Assembly: GCA_002371985.1 (NCBI GenBank) | Contig: DFHZ01000097.1 | Coordinates: 1 to 11,127, forward strand | Direction: 5' to 3' | Source: Ruminococcaceae bacterium UBA3710 | GTDB taxonomy: Bacteria; Bacillota; Clostridia; Oscillospirales; Acutalibacteraceae | Length of the DNA stretch: 11,127 nucleotides | Shown here: one piece after another, positions 302-11,127 of the stretch | Layout of the letters: the number at the start of each line of letters is the position of its first letter | How positions within the stretch are numbered: position 1 is the stretch's first letter | Notes under the pieces: model-generated | Seen by the model: only the letters and a program-made list of their open reading frames with translations | What the model was told of the DNA's origin: nothing | Databases searched by the model: none | Position numbers and translations under genes: made by a program

Positions 302-1195
302 TTGGGATTCTTGAATGTTGTTGAAATCTGCGTTTCTTCAATTTGTCTTGCCTTGGGAATTGCCGGTCTTGCTTTTTCAAAATCTTCAAAAGCAGTAGGC
401 GACGACCCTAAAAAAGCAAAGAAACGCAAAAGACTCTTTACCGTTTTAACGCTATTCGGGGGTTGGTTCCTTATCGGAACTTTAATTTCTGTAATAAGCA
501 ACAAAAAAAGCGGTATTGAAATTGAGTTTTCTCTTCTTAGTGAGAGATTAAATATTTTCGGGTTTTCACTTGCCGAAACATCTGTAATTTCCATCTGTAT
601 TACTGCAATAGTTTTGGTGTTATCGCTTGTTTTCAGGTTTTTTATTTTCCCAAAATTTACATTTGATAACCCTAAGGGCATACAAAACCTGCTCGAGATT
701 GCAGTTGAATCAATGGACAAGTTTGCAAAGAGTAATTTAATGGATTATTCGGGAGTTTTAGCACCGTATATGTTCACGCTCGGCGTATTTATGATATTTT
801 CCGCCGCAAGTGAATTATTCGGTTTAAGGGCTCCGACATCCGACATAGTTACTACCTTTGCAATGGGAATAATTACATTTGCTCTCATAAATTTCTTTGG
901 AATAAAGAAAAAAGGTATCGGCGGAAGAATAAAGGGAATGGCGTCGCCTACCCCTCTTGTTTTTCCTATGAAAATACTAAGCGATATAGCAGTCCCCGTT
1001 TCACTTGCATGTCGTCTTTTCGGAAATATGCTCGGCGGAATGATAGTTATGGACCTTTTAAAGTCTGCTCTCGGCGGATACGCAACCGGTATTCCGGCTG
1101 TTGCAGGAATTTACTTTAATCTATTCCACCCTATAATTCAAGCCTATATATTTATTGTTTTGTCTATGACCTTCATTAATGAAGCGATAGAATAA
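302..1195 (+). CDS. atpB: ATP synthase F0 subunit a, with N-terminal extension
   Basis: Subunit a is the stator half of the F0 ion channel. The diagnostic segment is around residues 233-247, with RLFGN preceded by PVSLAC. R238 corresponds to the essential stator arginine (E. coli aArg210). The C-terminal helix with NLFHPIIQAYIF is also typical. At 297 residues it is long for a clostridial subunit a. About 80 residues precede the usual first helix and contain two predicted membrane segments (about 8-27 and 45-66) separated by a strongly basic stretch (KKAKKRKR). The canonical core begins near residue 90. The start is TTG at 302: an in-frame TGA lies at 293, and GGAG at 288-291 gives 10-base spacing. 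The ATG at 292 is in another frame and stops after 10 codons. Confidence 0.95.
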   Translation: MGFLNVVEICVSSICLALGIAGLAFSKSSKAVGDDPKKAKKRKRLFTVLTLFGGWFLIGTLISVISNKKSGIEIEFSLLSERLNIFGFSLAETSVISICITAIVLVLSLVFRFFIFPKFTFDNPKGIQNLLEIAVESMDKFAKSNLMDYSGVLAPYMFTLGVFMIFSAASELFGLRAPTSDIVTTFAMGIITFALINFFGIKKKGIGGRIKGMASPTPLVFPMKILSDIAVPVSLACRLFGNMLGGMIVMDLLKSALGGYATGIPAVAGIYFNLFHPIIQAYIFIVLSMTFINEAIE

Positions 1196-1223: not shown

Positions 1224-1433
1224 ATGAACGCTATTGGTGCAGGACTTGCAATGTTGACTGCTTTAGGAGCAGGATTCGGTATGTGTATGGCAACAGCAAA
1301 GGCCGTTGAATCGGTGGCTCGTCAGCCTGAAGCCTCGGGTAAAATCAACTCTATTCTTCTTTTGGGTTGTGCTCTTGCAGAGTCAACCGCAATTTATGCA
1401 TTCGTTATCGCACTTGTTCTTGCGGTAAAATAA
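1224..1433 (+). CDS. atpE: ATP synthase F0 subunit c (ring proteolipid)
   Basis: This 69-residue hairpin of two membrane helices forms the rotating c-ring. The polar loop with ARQPEA (residues 32-37) is the classic contact with gamma and epsilon. E53 in helix 2 is the ion-carrying carboxylate and is followed by S54 and T55, as in sodium-binding rings such as that of Ilyobacter. However, the residue 33 positions before E53, Gln in those rings, is Met20 here, and no other Gln lies in helix 1. By sequence the ring is therefore not a standard sodium type, and proton coupling is at least as likely. GGAG at 1211-1214, nine bases before the ATG, is a good ribosome binding site. This is usually the most highly translated gene of the operon. 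Confidence 0.97.
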
Positions 1434-1446
1434 GAGGTAAGTTGCA

Positions 1447-1938
1447 ATGAACATTAATCTATCCGAAACAGTCGTAGATTTAATTATCAATATTTTAAAT
1501 ATTGTTATTCTTTTCTTGATTGTTAAGGCTTTGGTTTATAAGCCTGTTCGCAAGTTTTTAGATGACAGAAGAGCCAAAGTAAACGAAGAAACCTCAAAGG
1601 CTCAAAAAATTCTCGACCAAGCAAACGAAGCTCTTAAAAGCAAGGACACCATTATTGAAGAAAGTCGGAAAAATGCCGAAATTGAGGCTCAAAAGACCTT
1701 TGAAGAAGCAAAGAACAATGCTGATTTCATAATTGCCGAAGCCAAAAAGAATGCTAAAATCATTGAGGAAAAATCAGCAGAGGAAATTAAATCTCAAAAG
1801 GAAAATATGATTCACTCTTCTAAAAATGAAATTGCCGAACTCGCAGTAAATATAGCCGAAAAAATTCTCGAAAGAGAAACAAACGAAGAAGATACAAAGA
1901 GAATAATCAACGAATTTTTTGACGAGGCAAATATATGA
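1447..1938 (+). CDS. atpF: ATP synthase F0 subunit b (peripheral stalk)
   Basis: The 163-residue protein has one N-terminal membrane helix (about residues 11-30) followed by the usual KPVRKFLDDRR turn and a long charged Ala/Glu/Lys-rich helix. It dimerises as a coiled coil to form the stalk holding the alpha3beta3 head still. Length and layout are normal (E. coli 156), so it has not absorbed any domain missing from the short delta that follows. The ribosome binding site AGAGG at 1433-1437 overlaps the atpE stop. The 3' end overlaps atpH by four bases (ATGA), which suggests coupled translation. Confidence 0.96.
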   Translation: MNINLSETVVDLIINILNIVILFLIVKALVYKPVRKFLDDRRAKVNEETSKAQKILDQANEALKSKDTIIEESRKNAEIEAQKTFEEAKNNADFIIAEAKKNAKIIEEKSAEEIKSQKENMIHSSKNEIAELAVNIAEKILERETNEEDTKRIINEFFDEANI

Positions 1939-2150
1939 CTATTACCATAACCGTACCTGCAAATATAACCGACGAAACCTACAATGAAATTTGTGAAGGG
2001 TTTAAAAAGAGATACGGAAACGATATTACCTTTTTAAAGGAAACGGACGAAAAAATTATCGGCGGATTTATTGCCGAAGCAAACGGTATTGTTTACGACA
2101 CTACCATCCGTTCCAAGTTAAATATGGTTAAAAAGGTTATTACCGAATAA
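1935..2150 (+). CDS. atpH: ATP synthase F1 subunit delta, C-terminal domain only
   Basis: Delta links the b stalk to the top of the F1 head. Normal bacterial delta is about 180 residues: an N-terminal six-helix bundle that binds the alpha N-termini, then a smaller C-terminal domain that binds b. This protein has only 71 residues and matches the C-terminal domain. It opens with a beta strand (TITITVPANI), continues through an amphipathic helix, and carries the hallmark EKIIGGFI stretch followed by the YDTTIRSKL segment. The start is firm: ATG at 1935 overlaps the atpF stop as ATGA and has GAGG at 1924-1927. There is no frame or space upstream for the missing domain, since atpF fills it and is itself full length. 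It does not look like a broken gene. The N-terminal domain may be dispensable or encoded elsewhere. Confidence 0.85.
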   Translation: MTITITVPANITDETYNEICEGFKKRYGNDITFLKETDEKIIGGFIAEANGIVYDTTIRSKLNMVKKVITE

Positions 2151-2171: not shown

Positions 2172-3672
2172 ATGTCCGAATATATGCCCGAAGGCATTAG
2201 TGCTTTTCTGAAAAAGCGACTTTCTGAACATACAGTTCAAACTATTAAATATAAATACGGAACGGTCATCAAAACCGGCGACGGCGTTGCCCGTATAAGC
2301 GGTCTGCCAGAAACGAAATACGGTGAACTCTTGCGTTTTGAAAACGGAACCTACGGTATGGTTCTTGACCTTGAAGAGAACCGTTTGGGTGCTGTTATAT
2401 TAGATACCGGAGATACAGTTTCCGAGGGCGATACGGTTATCGGCACGGGAAGAGTCGCCGAAGTGCCTGTCGGGAACGAACTTTTAGGCAGGGTTGTAGA
2501 CCCTATCGGCAGACCTCTTGACGCAAGACCACTTATAGCAAACGAATATAGTGCCTTAGAACAACCTGCACCTAAAATAATCGAACGCAGACCTGTTGAT
2601 ACACCGCTTAAAACCGGTATTCTTGCTATTGACAGTATGATTCCTATAGGTATGGGTCAGCGTGAACTTATAATAGGCGACCGTCAAACGGGTAAAACCT
2701 CTATTGCTATTGATACTATACTTAATCAGAAAGACTCTGATGTTATTTGTATCTATTGTGCCATAGGTCAAAAGGCTTCAACCGTTTCTTCTGTTATTGA
2801 TACGCTTAAAAGCAAGGGTGCATTGGAATATACAACCGTTGTCGTTTCTACCGCTTCCGACTCACCGGCTATGCAGTATCTATCGCCTTTTTCAGCCACA
2901 AGCATTGCCGAACATTTTATGAAAAACGGAAAAAATGTTCTTGTTATCTATGACGATTTGTCAAAACACGCTGTTGCATACAGAACTATGTCCCTGCTTC
3001 TTCACAGACCGCCCGGCAGAGAAGCATATCCGGGTGATATATTTTATCTTCATAGCAGACTTTTGGAACGAAGTGCCTGTCTTTCAAAAGATTTGGGTGG
3101 CGGTACTCTTACCGCTCTGCCTATTATTGAAACAATGGGCGGAAACATTTCGGCTTATGTTCCTACTAATGTAATTTCAATCACAGACGGTCAGATATAC
3201 CTTGAAAACGAGTTGTTTAACAGCGGTATCAGACCTGCCATTAACACGGGTCTTTCGGTTTCCCGTGTCGGCCGTGCCGCACAAAGCAATTCTATGAAAA
3301 AGGTTTCGGGTACTCTGCGTATTGAATTATCAAAATTCAGAGAAATGGCAGTTTTTGCCCGTTTTGGCAGTGATGTTGATGTAACTACGGCTAAAATGTT
3401 AAAACGAGGTGCCGTTTTAACCGAATTATTTAAACAAGAAAAATCAAAACCGTACAGCAATTTTGAAGAAACGGCGTTATTACTCGCCTATAAAACAGGT
3501 GTATTTGAAGATATTGAACTTAAAAATCTTAAAAAGTTTTGTTCTCTTATGCTTGAATATGTTAAAACCGACTCTTCTGCTGCGGCATCAAAAATAAACA
3601 CCTCAGGCAATATGGATGAAAGCGACGAAAGAGCCTTGGTAAGTTCTATTTTAGAATTTAAGGAAAGTTATA

Positions 3673-3680
<8 letters not shown>
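2172..3680 (+). CDS. atpA: ATP synthase F1 subunit alpha
   Basis: This is the non-catalytic nucleotide-binding subunit of the F1 head, 502 residues, the usual length. The Walker A motif GDRQTGKT is at residues 169-176 and the Walker B region with YDDLSK starts at 260. PPGREAYPGD (280-289) and LHSRLLER (293-300) are the expected family blocks. R365 in SVSRVG is the arginine finger that reaches into the catalytic site on beta. The usually small residue three positions later is arginine here (R368, giving VGRAAQ). The N-terminal amphipathic helix that normally docks on the delta N-terminal domain is still present (about residues 2-20), although that delta domain is missing. GGAGG at 2161-2165 is a strong ribosome binding site. 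The end overlaps atpG by eight bases. Confidence 0.98.
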
Positions 3681-5933
<2,253 letters not shown>

Positions 5934-5965
5934 TACTCCGTTTTTAATATTTGAGAGGTGGGACT

Positions 5966-6379
5966 ATGAGCGAATTTAATCTCGAAATTTTAACTCCTGA
6001 AAAGCAGTTCTTTTCAGGGGCAGTTGAAGACGCTATATGCCCTACTTCCGACGGAGATATTGAAATACTCAAAGGGCATCAAAATCTTGTTGCCGCTTTG
6101 GGTCGGGACGAAATCAAACTCAAAATAAACGGCGAGTGGAAAACCGCTGTTGTTGAGGACGGCTTTTTTGAGGTCAGACCCGACAAGGTTATTATTTTTG
6201 CTATGTATTGCGACGATATAAGCGACTATAAATCGGCAAAGGCAAAACGAGAGGAAACAATAAAAAGAGAGCAAGAAATTTATAAAGAAAATCTTTCAAA
6301 AGAAAAAATAAATAATATTGATATTTCAAAATTCATTATTTCTGCACACAGAAGAAATAAAAGTATAAATTTCAAATAA
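5966..6379 (+). CDS. atpC: ATP synthase F1 subunit epsilon
   Basis: Epsilon sits at the foot of the shaft, binds the c-ring loop and can inhibit ATP hydrolysis. From the ATG at 5966 the protein is 137 residues (E. coli 139). The N-terminal beta sandwich shows the usual FNLEILTPEKQFFSG opening, the GDIEILKGHQNLVAAL block and GFFEVRPDKVIIFA. The C-terminal part is a charged helical arm rich in Lys and Glu. A TTG at 5951 is also in frame, but GAGGTGGG at 5955-5962 just before the ATG decides for 5966. It is separated from atpD by 32 bases, unlike the overlapping genes before it, and is the last gene of the operon. I see no clear Bacillus-type ATP-binding motif in the arm. Confidence 0.95.
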   Translation: MSEFNLEILTPEKQFFSGAVEDAICPTSDGDIEILKGHQNLVAALGRDEIKLKINGEWKTAVVEDGFFEVRPDKVIIFAMYCDDISDYKSAKAKREETIKREQEIYKENLSKEKINNIDISKFIISAHRRNKSINFK

Positions 6380-6395
6380 ATTTTATCGAAATTAT

Positions 6396-6432
6396 TAGAA
6401 GGGTGAGAGAATTTTATTCTCTCACCCTTCTA
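6396..6432. terminator. Terminator hairpin between the convergent ATP synthase and tryptophan transport operons
   Basis: The arms AGAAGGGTGAGAGAA (6397-6411) and TTCTCTCACCCTTCT (6417-6431) are perfect inverted complements. One further T-A pair at the base (6396/6432) and one at the loop side (6412/6416) give about 17 pairs around a three-base loop. ATTTTT follows on the plus side. On the minus side the trailing T run is poorer, so the plus-strand function (end of atpC) is clearer, but it can serve trpZ as well. It lies 17 bases from each flanking coding end. Confidence 0.9.
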
Positions 6433-6448: not shown

Positions 6449-7234
6449 TTAATCAAGAAGCATACGGTCATTATCAAGGGTAGTTCCTGCCGCATTTTTG
6501 AATGCAACAAGCAGGTCTGAAACCGTAAGTTTTGAACGCTCTTCCCCCGAAGTATCAAATATGATTTTTCCTTTATCCATCATAATCGTCCTTGTTCCGA
6601 GGTCCAAAGCCGACTGCATATTATGAGTAATCATAAGGCAGGTTAAATTGTTTTCGCTTACTATTGTCTTTGTAAGATTTATAACCTTTTCGGCAGTTGC
6701 AGGGTCGAGTGCCGCCGTATGTTCGTCGAGCAGTAAAAGTTTTGGCGGATTTATAGTTGCCATAAGAAGTGTTATCGCCTGTCGCTGACCGCCCGATAAT
6801 AGTCCCATCGGGCTTTGCATACGGTCTTCAAGTCCCATATCAAGACAGGCTATCTTCTCACGAAATAGTTTCTTATCGTCAGCCGAAACACCCGAAAGCC
6901 AACCGCCGTGCCCACAGGCAAGTGCAAGGTTTTCTTCTACGGTCATTCCCGGTGCCGTGCCTTTCATCGGGTCTTGAAAAAGTCTGCCGATTTTCTTTGC
7001 CCTTTTATGCTCAGGCATAAGGGTTATATCCTTGCCGTCAAGTAATACCGAGCCGGTATCGGTTATAAATGTTCCGGCGATTGCATTAAACAAGGTTGAT
7101 TTACCGGCACCGTTCGCACCGATAACCGTTATAAAATCACCCGATTTAACATTAAGAGAAAGATTGTCAAGGGCAAGTTTTGCCGTAGCCGTACCGGGGT
7201 TAAATGTTTTGGAAATATTATTTATATTAAGCAT
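6449..7234 (-). CDS. trpZ: ABC transporter ATPase of a tryptophan importer (TrpZ type)
   Basis: This ATPase powers the importer encoded by the two genes before it. From ATG at 7234 it has 261 residues. It contains Walker A GANGAGKST (39-47), Q-loop FQDP (86-89), signature LSGGQRQ (146-152), Walker B LLLLDEH (166-172), D-loop ALDP and switch histidine H204. The Glu of Walker B is present, so it should hydrolyse ATP. The opening MLNINNISKTF is the normal start of such proteins. A GTG at 7255 is in frame and would add seven residues overlapping trpY, but neither start has a convincing ribosome binding site. The ATG is four bases past the trpY stop, so re-initiation after trpY is likely. The tryptophan assignment comes from the T-box upstream, not from this protein. 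Confidence 0.88.
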   Translation of the reverse strand: MLNINNISKTFNPGTATAKLALDNLSLNVKSGDFITVIGANGAGKSTLFNAIAGTFITDTGSVLLDGKDITLMPEHKRAKKIGRLFQDPMKGTAPGMTVEENLALACGHGGWLSGVSADDKKLFREKIACLDMGLEDRMQSPMGLLSGGQRQAITLLMATINPPKLLLLDEHTAALDPATAEKVINLTKTIVSENNLTCLMITHNMQSALDLGTRTIMMDKGKIIFDTSGEERSKLTVSDLLVAFKNAAGTTLDNDRMLLD

Positions 7235-7238
7235 TGTA

Positions 7239-8312
7239 TCAGCCACGAACTTCACCGCCGTTTCTATGCTTTAACCGTCTTTTTATCATTGGTAACTGTT
7301 TTTTGAAATACGGTGTTGAAATTGCAATTACAACAATTAAGGAATAAACAAGTTTTAAGAGATTTGTATCTATCTTAAGTGCAAGTGCTATGGCATAGAT
7401 AAGACGGAAAATAATTGTTCCGAGCACCGCACCAAGGCAACGCACCGCTATACTTCCCTCGCTTATGAAAACTCCGCCTATAAGAAGTGAAGCAAGAGCC
7501 ATTGTTACCATACCTCCGCCGACATTTATATCGGCAGAATTTGTATATTGTATAAAAAGGCAACCTGAAAGAGCCGTCATAGACCCCGAAATACAAAGTC
7601 CTGTAATTATCGTCATTACGGGGTTTATAGAGGAAGAGCGAACCATTTCGGGGTTATCGCCGGTTGCGTGAATGGCAAGACCTAATTTAGTCCTTAAAAA
7701 GAAGGACAAAAATGTAATTACTATTATTACAAAGGCACCGGCAACTATAAGTGCCGAATACTGAACAAACGGTGATTTAGGCATTCTTTCAAACGCATTT
7801 TCAAAACCCATTCTCGCCTTTTCGCCGAAAACTCGTCTTACAATAGAAAATATCGTTTCATTTCTGAAAATATTTATTGTAGATTTGCCCATAATTACAA
7901 TATTTACACTATAAAGTCCAGTATTCACGATAATTCCCGACAAAAGACTGTTTACGCCCATTTTTGTCTGCAAAACGGCAGTAACAAGTCCCGAAAGGGC
8001 CCCTGCCAAAAGTGCGGCAGGTATTGCTAAATAAGGATGTCCCGAAGCCGCCATAACTCCGCCTACGGCAACACCCAAAGTATAGCACCCGTCGGTAGAA
8101 AGGTCGCATATATTAAGCATTGTATAACTTAAAAACAATGCCAGAACGACAAGAGAATTGATAAGACCTACTTCTATCGCCGCCTGATCACGGTTCCACG
8201 ATAACACACCAAATAAATGGAGAAGAATTATCACGACAAGAAGTATGAGTATCGGCGAAATCTTGCCGAGTGTTTTCAAATACTTATTATCTGATTTTAA
8301 ACTCATTTTCAA
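7239..8312 (-). CDS. trpY: ABC transporter permease of a tryptophan importer (TrpY type)
   Basis: This 357-residue inner-membrane protein has eight or more hydrophobic segments and belongs to the branched-chain amino acid/ribose permease type (BPD_transp_2). The segment GVNSLLSGIIVNTGLYSVNI (119-138) and the Gly/Ala-rich helices are typical. In TrpXYZ-like systems a single permease gene works as a homodimer with the ATPase and the lipoprotein. The tail after the last helix is basic (KKQLPMIKRRLKHRNGG). The start is ambiguous: TTG at 8312 has AAGGGA seven bases ahead of it, while ATG at 8306, two codons in, is 13 bases away. Spacing favours TTG, codon type favours ATG. It lies 26 bases after trpX. 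Confidence 0.9.
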   Translation of the reverse strand: MKMSLKSDNKYLKTLGKISPILILLVVIILLHLFGVLSWNRDQAAIEVGLINSLVVLALFLSYTMLNICDLSTDGCYTLGVAVGGVMAASGHPYLAIPAALLAGALSGLVTAVLQTKMGVNSLLSGIIVNTGLYSVNIVIMGKSTINIFRNETIFSIVRRVFGEKARMGFENAFERMPKSPFVQYSALIVAGAFVIIVITFLSFFLRTKLGLAIHATGDNPEMVRSSSINPVMTIITGLCISGSMTALSGCLFIQYTNSADINVGGGMVTMALASLLIGGVFISEGSIAVRCLGAVLGTIIFRLIYAIALALKIDTNLLKLVYSLIVVIAISTPYFKKQLPMIKRRLKHRNGGEVRG

Positions 8313-8338
8313 AAACTGTTCCCTTACGCTTAAAAAAA

Positions 8339-9376
8339 TTACTTATCAAAGTTTTCTGCTGTCTTTATAGGAAGTACCTTTGAGCAAAGAGGAGCAAATA
8401 ATTCAGATAATTTTTCAAAATCATATCCGATAGCCTTTGCCGTTTCTTCGTTGATAGTTGCTATGCCGTTATCAAATGTCTTAACAGGTATAGACGAAGG
8501 GCTCTTTCCGTTTACAAGAATATCCGCAACTATTTTTGCGGTTTCTTTTCCTAAATTTGCATAATCTACGCCGTATCCTAAAAATGCTCCGTTTAATGCG
8601 AAAGAATCGGCACCTGTATAGTGAGGAATTTTTGCATCGGCGAATATTTTATAAATTGAAAGTTCTGCTGCCATAATCGAATTATCGGTAGGAGTAAATA
8701 CGGCATCAACCTTTTCCGAAACAAGTTGTTCGGCGGCAAGTTTGATTTCCTCTATTGTTGCACCGTTTGCTTCGGCAACCTTAATACCTGCGTCTTCGAG
8801 GAATTTCTTAGCATCTTTAACAGGGGTAGCGGAAGAATCCTGACCCAAATCGTAAAGAAGACCTACCTTTTTGACATCGGGATTAAGTTTTTTAATCAAA
8901 TTCAAAACTGCTTCTGTATTAAGATAATCCGATGTGCCGGTTATGTTTGCTTCGGGGTTTTCGAGAGATTTAACAAGACCTACGGAAATCGGGTCTGATA
9001 CTGCGGAAAACACAACAGGTATATCGCTGTTTGCCGTTTGTGCTTGCATAGCCATTGCAACAGGTGTTGCAACACCAATCATTAAGTCAACCTTATCAGA
9101 TTTAAACTCTTCAATGATTTGTTGCAAAAGAGAACTATCAGCATTGCAGTTTTCAACCGTTACATCAAACTCAACATCATTTGCTTTTGCTATTGATTTA
9201 AGTTCGGACTGTATGTTGTCTACAATCTGGTTAAGGGAAGCATCGTCAACATAGTTGCAGATACCCACCTTAAAAGTCTTTTTGGCAGTTTCACCTTTTT
9301 CTCCGCACCCTGCAAGAAGCGAAATGCAGGAAATCACCAAAACGATTGATAAAATAATTGACAGTGTCTTTTTCAT
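8339..9376 (-). CDS. trpX: Tryptophan-importer substrate-binding lipoprotein (TrpX type)
   Basis: This 345-residue extracellular binding protein is anchored by a lipid. The N-terminus has KK, a hydrophobic helix and a lipobox LLAGC with Cys24 as the modified residue. The mature protein matches the ABC_sub_bind family (Pfam PF04392): FKVGICNYVDDASLNQI opens lobe 1, VDLMIGVATPVAMAMQ and IPVVFSAVSDP follow, then TGTSDYLNTEAVLNLIKKL at the hinge and VDAVFTPTDNSIMAA in lobe 2. Members occur with one permease and one ATPase, and in Bacillota often behind tryptophan or tyrosine T-boxes. ATG at 9376 has AGGAG at 9386-9390. The T-box with a UGG specifier makes tryptophan the expected ligand. A tryptophan-related metabolite is not excluded. 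Confidence 0.9.
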   Translation of the reverse strand: MKKTLSIILSIVLVISCISLLAGCGEKGETAKKTFKVGICNYVDDASLNQIVDNIQSELKSIAKANDVEFDVTVENCNADSSLLQQIIEEFKSDKVDLMIGVATPVAMAMQAQTANSDIPVVFSAVSDPISVGLVKSLENPEANITGTSDYLNTEAVLNLIKKLNPDVKKVGLLYDLGQDSSATPVKDAKKFLEDAGIKVAEANGATIEEIKLAAEQLVSEKVDAVFTPTDNSIMAAELSIYKIFADAKIPHYTGADSFALNGAFLGYGVDYANLGKETAKIVADILVNGKSPSSIPVKTFDNGIATINEETAKAIGYDFEKLSELFAPLCSKVLPIKTAENFDK

Positions 9377-9816: not shown

Positions 9817-9838
9817 AAAAGCCCTATCTGTCGAGCTT
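9817..9838 (-). terminator. Weak candidate terminator at the end of the P-type ATPase gene
   Basis: AAGCTC and GGGCTT form a six-pair stem (one G-U pair) with an eight-base loop overlapping the stop codon, followed by TTTTG and then a long A/T-rich stretch. The stem is short and the T run is brief, so termination would be partial at best. Confidence 0.3.
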
Positions 9839-11127
9839 CAAGAGCCTGAAAAAGAAGAATGTAAGATATCTCATGACCGTTATCTCCGCAAAGGCGAAAA
9901 CAACGCAAAGCATAACGCCCCTGTTTGAAAACTCGGTCAGCATGAAAAGGTCGCGAAGCTGGGGAACGAGGGCGAAAAGGATAAATCCCAAAACGCACCC
10001 GATAAGAACGGTTATCTTGTATCCGTTAAGCGGTTTTGAAACATGGTGAAGGATAAGGAAACCTACTATCGCGAGAAGATATGTGCTTGCGATACCGACA
10101 TCCTTGCCCGAAATGTTAAAGACATCTCCGAAAACTACCAGCGCCGCTATCGACATAAAGGATGTAAGGGAAGCCGGAAGCGCCGTCATAACGGTCCGTT
10201 TAAGGAAATTCTGACTTTGCTTTTTAGTGTTTGTTTCAAGGGATAAAAGGAAGGCGGGAACGCCGATATTGAAAAGGGATACGAGAGAGACCTGCGAGGG
10301 CGAGAGGGGATAGGTAAAGAACATGGCGATCGAGTAGATGGCAAGAAAAGCCGAGAACATATTTTTGTATAAAAAGAGGGTCGCCGAGCGGGTAATGTTG
10401 TTTACTATCTGCCGCCCCTGGGTCACGATGCTTTTCATTCTCGAAAAATCCGAGTCGAGCAGAACTATCTGCGCCGCCTGCCTTGCGGCGTCGCTTCCCG
10501 TACCCATTGCGATAGAGCAGTCCGCCTCTTTCATGGCGAGGATATCGTTGACGCCGTCGCCGGTCATGGCAACTGTATGTCCGTCTTCTTTTAAGGCACG
10601 GACAAACATGCGTTTCTGTGCAGGTGTGACACGGCCGAAAACGGTGTATTCCCGGACGGCGTGCCGGATATCGTCCATCGTCTCCAGGGTGGATGCATCT
10701 ACATACAGGCCTGCATTGTGAATCCCCGCCTGTGTAGCCACTTCCGACACGGTCAGCGGGTTGTCACCGGAAATGACCTTGATGTCCACTCCCTGATTGT
10801 GGAAATAGCGGAAGGTTTTGTCCGCATCTTTCCGGATCTTATTGGCGATCACAACGAGGGCCAGCGGTGTGATCGGAGCAGTGAGTGCCTGACCGTCCGG
10901 TTCTCCTTTATAGGAGGCAAGCACCAGCACACGGAATCCCTTCCCGGTATGTTCCTCAATTTCTTCTCTATATGTTTCGAATTGTTCTTTTAGGATAAAT
11001 TCAGGAGCGCCAAGTACATACGCGTGATCTTCAAACGTGACGCTGCTGTACTTAAAGGCGGATGAAAAACCTGTAACGGTAATCGGTCTGGCCGAACCCG
11101 GGTGTGTAAAGAAAGCCTGCAGGGCTT
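9824..11127 (-). CDS. P-type cation ATPase, CtpE-like, 5' end outside the window
   Basis: The frame is open from the right edge to the TAG at 9824, giving 433 C-terminal residues of a protein probably near 800. The GTG at 10930 is only an internal codon. Visible in order are the end of the nucleotide-binding domain (FSSAFKYS, then VLGAPEF near residue 39, where many P-type pumps have KGAPE), the P-domain GDNPLT and the TGDGVND hinge near residue 187. About six membrane segments follow, including the block FNIGVPAFLLSLETN typical of CtpE-like pumps. The phosphorylated DKTGT and the transmembrane metal site are outside the window. CtpE of Mycobacterium has been linked to calcium uptake, but the ion here is not readable. 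The gene is richer in G+C than its neighbours, and codon choice changes near TGDGVND. Confidence 0.9.
   Translation of the reverse strand, partial: ALQAFFTHPGSARPITVTGFSSAFKYSSVTFEDHAYVLGAPEFILKEQFETYREEIEEHTGKGFRVLVLASYKGEPDGQALTAPITPLALVVIANKIRKDADKTFRYFHNQGVDIKVISGDNPLTVSEVATQAGIHNAGLYVDASTLETMDDIRHAVREYTVFGRVTPAQKRMFVRALKEDGHTVAMTGDGVNDILAMKEADCSIAMGTGSDAARQAAQIVLLDSDFSRMKSIVTQGRQIVNNITRSATLFLYKNMFSAFLAIYSIAMFFTYPLSPSQVSLVSLFNIGVPAFLLSLETNTKKQSQNFLKRTVMTALPASLTSFMSIAALVVFGDVFNISGKDVGIASTYLLAIVGFLILHHVSKPLNGYKITVLIGCVLGFILFALVPQLRDLFMLTEFSNRGVMLCVVFAFAEITVMRYLTFFFFRLLKLDR

Follow-up and report, generated by a model that had tools for sequence, protein, structure and literature searches.

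The textbook F-type ATP synthase has one peripheral stalk, one delta subunit, and one a-subunit, and the number of ions moved per ATP is set by the size of the c-ring alone. The b-delta fusion of mycobacteria keeps the N-terminal domain (NTD) of delta and a single stalk. In the PDB chain of that fusion (7jg5_d, 445 aa) the C-terminal domain (CTD) of delta shares one chain with a stalk subunit, unlike the delta described here, which is unfused.

In an engineered Bacillus PS3 FoF1, delta residues 2-104 were deleted and the rest was fused to alpha, giving enzymes with up to three stalks and three a-subunits and an H+/ATP ratio of 5.8 (Ueno et al. 2025; PMC12229609). According to the accessible part of that paper, the NTD, lying on the threefold axis, restricts the enzyme to one stalk; the CTD was fused because the authors feared that an unfused one would not hold, and they blamed detachment for the rarity of three-stalk particles in cryo-EM. 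The same part notes a natural NTD-less delta-alpha fusion in Acidaminococcus fermentans, which the authors predict to be multi-stalk, and similar features in two UniProt entries (PMC12229609). The NTD-less multi-stalk F-ATPase is thus already in the literature, in engineered form and with mention of one natural fusion; a lineage with a free delta CTD and a b-CTD-alpha triple fusion were not found in the literature searched.

The ATP synthase of Chloroflexus aurantiacus is also F-type with more than one a-subunit and delta per PDB entry (9itj and related): six entries hold 18 alpha and 12 delta chains and 18 entries hold 36 a chains, an average per entry, by chain counts only, of three alpha, two delta, and two a. 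Its delta differs from the one described here, having 157 aa with the CTD at 89-155 and the sequence before the CTD still there.

The atp Operon

The window, the whole 11,127-nucleotide stretch analysed (Ruminococcaceae bacterium UBA3710, contig DFHZ01000097.1), shows the gene order of F-type ATP synthases: a, c, b, the delta slot, alpha, gamma, beta, and epsilon (Table 1). The genes atpA, atpG, atpD, and atpC are whole, and subunits a and b, though below the NCBIfam cut-offs, score well above those of Pfam. Subunit c retains an AEST stretch and has Met at the position where the Na+ c-subunit of Ilyobacter presumably has Gln. Downstream are ABC transporter genes on the minus strand (ATPase, permease, and substrate-binding protein, recognized by eye), as well as a P-type ATPase-like ORF cut off by the end of the window (6449-9376 and 9824-11125).

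Table 1. Features of the atp operon in the window
Feature	Position	Strand	Size and basis
atpB, subunit a	302..1195	+	297 aa by longest ORF, TTG start; PF00119 E = 2.9e-39; below NCBIfam cut-offs
atpE, subunit c	1224..1433	+	69 aa; TIGR01260 above cut-off
atpF, subunit b, full length	1447..1938	+	163 aa; PF00430 E = 4e-19; below NCBIfam cut-offs
GAGG, likely ribosome-binding site of short delta	1924..1927	+	sequence
atpH, delta CTD, free-standing (deltaDeltaN)	1935..2150	+	71 aa; PF00213 positions 104-170; pLDDT 92.6; Foldseek
atpA, alpha	2172..3680	+	502 aa; TIGR00962 686.2 bits; N-terminal helix kept (alignment)
atpG, gamma	3673..4548	+	291 aa; TIGR01146 above cut-off
atpD, beta	4548..5933	+	461 aa; TIGR01039 736.6 bits
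atpC, epsilon	5966..6379	+	137 aa from ATG 5966 (longest ORF: TTG 5951); TIGR01216 above cut-off

A Delta Subunit Reduced to Its C-Terminal Domain

The slot between atpF and atpA encodes the delta/OSCP CTD alone, and the gene is not broken. Its ATG at 1935 overlaps the TGA stop of atpF (1936-1938) as ATGA, with the GAGG lying seven bases 5' of the start. Residues 2-67 match the C-terminal, b-binding end of the Pfam OSCP family (PF00213, E = 3.3e-11; 172 model positions), and model positions 1-103, covering the six-helix NTD, are without any match; the NCBIfam delta models likewise match the C-terminal part alone, with scores below their cut-offs. The reading frame is open for just 75 codons from stop to stop, so no upstream start could add an NTD. 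The predicted structure is strand-helix-strand-strand-strand-helix, and a Foldseek search with it returned ATP synthase entry chains as the first 42 of the best 50 of 1135 matches; those also recovered by sequence search are delta/OSCP or b-delta chains. The protein thus shares the CTD sequence and fold of canonical delta/OSCP and differs from it in having no NTD.

The short delta is a working gene of fixed size under purifying selection: dN/dS is 0.07-0.17 in seven of nine species pairs (dS is saturated in the other two, and is below 1 in two pairs only: 0.10 and 0.17), and all six database matches, one of them the window's own cluster (P0001), are exactly 71 aa long at 70-99% identity. Together with the profile and structure matches, this exceeds chance by a wide margin. 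A preliminary description made from the window sequence had taken the gene for the b-binding C-terminal part of delta, with its start fixed by the ATGA overlap and the GAGG, no remnant frame, a full-length atpF, and an alpha that keeps its N-terminal helix, and had argued that this is not a simple truncation by mutation. All of these points stand, the last because of the purifying selection, the constant length of the matches, and the preservation of size in many species.

The natural gene resembles the engineered PS3 delta closely, residue 1 corresponding to about residue 107 of PS3 delta where the engineered cut keeps 105-178; in both the NTD is absent and the alpha helix is kept. As far as the published account of the PS3 enzyme goes, the two differ in that the latter is man-made, with its CTD fused to alpha and its stalks measured, whereas the window has a separate delta gene and its stalk number must be deduced. 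The fusion to alpha that marks the multi-stalk type of Ueno et al. is lacking in the window as well by comparison with the published description of A. fermentans, which shares the natural loss of the NTD. The second PDB match of the family profile is a 580 aa delta-alpha chain (9jc1_I), presumably the engineered enzyme of Ueno et al.

Distribution of NTD-Less Deltas

A search of 119 relatives and the window's own genome yielded 33 loci matching the CTD only or mainly, all of which were parsed: 17 are lone short deltas (the window included; 15 in its genus), eight are CTD-alpha fusions, seven are triple fusions of b, CTD, and alpha, and one is a divergent 159 aa ORF (L043). The lone deltas are 71-84 aa by longest ORF, apart from one of 118 aa through an early start. 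Five further lone deltas were found (L187-L191), among them that of G312, whose genome is a single contig. Of the relatives that have names, Clostridia bacterium Horse_feces227 (L072) and Ruminococcaceae bacterium UBA3220 (L073) stand nearest to the window. Close relatives with an intact delta would have spoken for a frameshift or deletion in the window; instead, the same 71 aa form recurs in four relatives whose alpha is 75-80% identical. Full-length deltas do occur in the genus, in a different operon lineage whose alpha is 50-55% identical in those compared. One small genome (G006) has two F-ATPase operons (L046 and L067), one with a lone delta CTD and one with a full delta.

Of 394 genomes sampled evenly across the order, 205 gave an OSCP match, and in 61 of the 205 the best match covered the CTD only (49 re-examined and 12 from the search of relatives; G077, which holds the divergent ORF L043, was excluded). 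The open frame is lone-sized (73-78 codons) in nine of the 61. Among the other 52, 45 have open frames 579-641 or 736-784 codons long, the lengths that CTD-alpha and b-CTD-alpha fusions would give, leaving four with 681 (G169), 668 (G117), 521 (G213), and 239 (G351) codons and three that are unclassified (G190, G269, and G347). One of the 61 (G450) has a second OSCP match at 34-172, reaching further into the NTD side, with three internal stops.

A CTD profile was used on a class sample (391 genomes), in which, among the matches listed, lone-sized frames of 75-92 codons, assigned by frame length, occur in at least five genomes (G000, G861, G865, G896, and G1088). In a phylum sample of 398 genomes the window is the sole row below 120 codons among the matches listed. 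Four genomes (G487, G568, G602, and G657) have three to four CTD-profile matches each, again among those listed. Another locus (L201:5572-6599 and 10013-10348) encodes three proteins of 111-160 aa with a delta-CTD-like domain, and atp genes were not found within its 12 kb stretch.

Search for a Separate NTD

The NTDs of ten full deltas were combined into a profile. At E<=0.01 it matched nothing in any of 21 lone-delta genomes, the window's own and the single-contig G312 among them; four weak matches (E 0.019-0.68) are at chance level. In all seven full-delta control genomes, which include G006 with its additional lone-delta operon, the same profile matched at E<=1.9e-27. Five of the seven had contributed rows to it (G006, G009, G065, G085, and G106), and the two that had not scored 3.5e-30 (G020) and 1.2e-33 (G052). 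The window's genome is a fragmented draft, 86.85% complete, with one OSCP match in all, so that on its own the missing NTD means little; over the set of 21 genomes it means much. The preliminary description had left a choice between a stalk-to-head joint that works differently in this lineage and another protein that supplies the clamp, perhaps a lone OSCP NTD encoded elsewhere in the genome. The second finds no support in the profile search and its controls. With only the CTD left and no separate NTD found, the joint must differ, and the likely consequence of losing the NTD is that the restriction to a single stalk is lifted. Neither this consequence nor the fused forms in relatives figure in the preliminary description.

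Fused Forms

The loci parsed include, besides full deltas and free CTDs, CTDs joined to alpha at its N-terminus (longest ORFs of about 570-655 aa), a tandem form with two delta CTDs on alpha (L182:5541-7568, 675 aa), near-full deltas fused to alpha (L183-L186 and L193), a b-deltaCTD fusion (L200, 229 aa), and proteins of about 730-750 aa that combine b, CTD, and alpha (L032, L034, L036, L047-L049, L051, L197, and others). Directly 5' of the triple fusion in 13 loci is an ORF of 138-152 aa, labelled b by BLAST in eight and unlabelled in five. Since each enzyme has three alphas, CTD-alpha fusions should bring three CTDs, and b-CTD-alpha should bring three b helices and three CTDs, if the chain stays whole. 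The predicted structure of one natural CTD-alpha fusion (L054) is poor (pLDDT 71.8, linker below 50, from an 18-row alignment) and silent on docking.

The b-deltaCTD gene and a 774 aa ORF lie side by side (L200:1885-4209 and 5712-6401); this ORF contains beta at 324-772, and the 320 residues at its start are probably gamma. Two loci (L126 and L144) have a UDP-GlcNAc 2-epimerase-like gene (by eye) directly 5' of atpA, in the place of delta; subunits a, c, and b had no match in the stretch examined there. Six loci of the CTD-alpha group (L060, L062, L053, L092, L098, and L099) encode a subunit c with a long N-terminal extension that resembles a signal peptide by eye.

Phylogeny of Alpha

Alpha trees were computed by quick IQ-TREE searches with SH-aLRT support only and are unrooted. 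The first (140 rows) omits L001, L016, L020, L031, L051, L068, L069, and L071, cores below 440 aa, and duplicates. The second (116 rows) has 34 of the 92 full-delta rows, chosen by hand, and excludes L043, L126, L143, and L144; the 37 rows added for it, L199 among them, were labelled by hand. L124 and L149, to which the BLAST step gave no label, were called lone by eye from upstream ORFs of 78 and 79 aa.

In the second tree the window falls in a group of 31 rows set apart by a branch with SH-aLRT 98 and consisting of 25 free CTDs, five CTD-alpha fusions, one b-CTD fusion, and no full delta; the matching group of the first tree has 24 rows and no full delta (SH-aLRT 97). Free and fused states are thus found in one group, and the type of fusion described by Ueno et al., absent from the window, is present in five of these 31 rows. 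The triple fusions form one clade of 15 rows (SH-aLRT 100). Of the near-full delta-alpha fusions, which number five, four branch at the base of the large CTD-alpha group or close to it (at forks that have support of 88-94 or are undrawn); L184, the fifth, nests with two CTD-alpha fusions (96). This placement suggests that in the large CTD-alpha group fusion preceded the erosion of the NTD, which took place more than once.

The AU test, run on a quick tree, rejects a single clade of all 76 NTD-less rows (p 2.8e-5). A single NTD loss shared by every NTD-less enzyme is thereby rejected, and the triple forms and the window are not closely related. By parsimony, six changes separate the states with and without NTD.

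Proposed Mechanism and Alternatives

On sequence and analogy, we favor, with some reserve, the view that the window enzyme is a naturally occurring F-ATPase with several stalks, each held by a delta CTD that is not fused to another subunit. Each CTD would grip a b pair by its C-terminal ends while resting on one alpha at the N-terminal region. In the ordinary enzyme, a single delta NTD occupies the dimple at the center of the alpha3beta3 head and ties the other two alphas, leaving room for one stalk. Since the genome yielded no NTD, all three alpha sites would be equivalent, so that two or three units of b pair, delta, and a could mount, and each extra a-subunit would offer a further ion path. 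More ions would then pass per ATP, and a weaker gradient would suffice for synthesis. More than one stalk is physically possible and seems to occur in nature, judging by the published engineered PS3 enzyme and the C. aurantiacus chain counts. What can be read directly from the window and its relatives is the loss of the NTD, purifying selection on the CTD, the retained alpha helix, and the mixture of free and fused states; from these we infer more than one stalk, and a CTD of this kind would have to hold its b pair to the head without fusion. The concern of Ueno et al. about an unfused CTD and the scarcity of their three-stalk particles count against this reading.

Whether the whole clade shares this design is a further step, which we put forward tentatively: it may run obligate two- or three-stalk enzymes on a free CTD, other lineages having locked the same architecture by fusion to alpha, to b, or to both. 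If so, loss of the NTD would be a switch thrown repeatedly in evolution, multiplying a-subunits and raising the ion/ATP ratio in low-energy anaerobes. The natural free, alpha-fused, b-fused, and triple-fused forms offer material for testing the number of a-subunits as an evolvable gear, and for asking if anaerobes near the thermodynamic limit use such gearing.

A one-stalk enzyme without a clamp, in which one free CTD links one b pair to one alpha and two alpha N-termini stay unbound, appears rather unlikely to us, although the operon forces no second CTD, its delta is unfused, its other subunits look ordinary, and the N-terminal helix of alpha would serve such an enzyme equally, which counts against the multi-stalk inference. 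The tree group of the window contains five CTD-alpha fusions and one b-CTD fusion, which would force more copies if the chain is whole. The PS3 experiment mounted extra stalks without an NTD, and in the accessible text the same authors doubted that a lone truncated delta would be stable on the head (PMC12229609).

An unrelated protein occupying the clamp site on the three alphas is improbable. Being dissimilar in sequence, it would evade a profile search, and alpha keeps its helix; yet the search found no relative of the NTD in any of the 21 genomes at the threshold given above, the atp genes of the window abut and leave no room for an additional gene, and the repeated losses counted by parsimony argue that the NTD is dispensable. 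Still less credible is a decaying or non-functional delta, or an error of assembly: the draft state of the window's genome lends it some color, but the dN/dS ratios, the similar size in 17 loci, and the uniform length of the database matches tell against it, and the similar-sized copies in other genomes and databases, together with the lone delta of the single-contig genome G312, rule out an assembly gap or frameshift.

Membership in the N-ATPases, a type that according to the accessible part of a published account lacks delta and has a longer b (PMC5706428), can be dismissed, because the window has the gene order given above with a separate gene for the delta CTD, its b is only 163 aa, and all six matching alt_F1F0 models (TIGR03305, 03306, 03321, 03322, 03323, and 03324) score below their cut-offs. 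The control genome of Methanosarcina acetivorans, a species counted among those with N-ATPase, the type without delta, in the part of the source available (PMC4154653), has an OSCP family score over the cut-off; a delta-CTD-like part might sit in an N-ATPase b.

Cellular Setting

RnfC scores above its cut-off in the window's genome and in 19 of the 21 lone-delta genomes, but also in six of the seven full-delta genomes, and it is not special to the lone-delta form. The V-type AC39 subunit is matched in 13 of the 21 lone-delta genomes versus one of the seven full-delta genomes, its profile having no match in the window's genome and seven other lone-delta genomes. For the window's genome, the presence of RnfC and the lack of an AC39 match would be fitting for an enzyme that works on a modest gradient made by Rnf, and a putative low-gradient ATP synthase would suit such cells. 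The single-contig genome G312 has a second lone-delta match in a second atp operon (L202:2470-13761), whose alpha is split into two ORFs and which directly follows an rnf operon (RnfC recognized by profile, the other rnf genes by eye).
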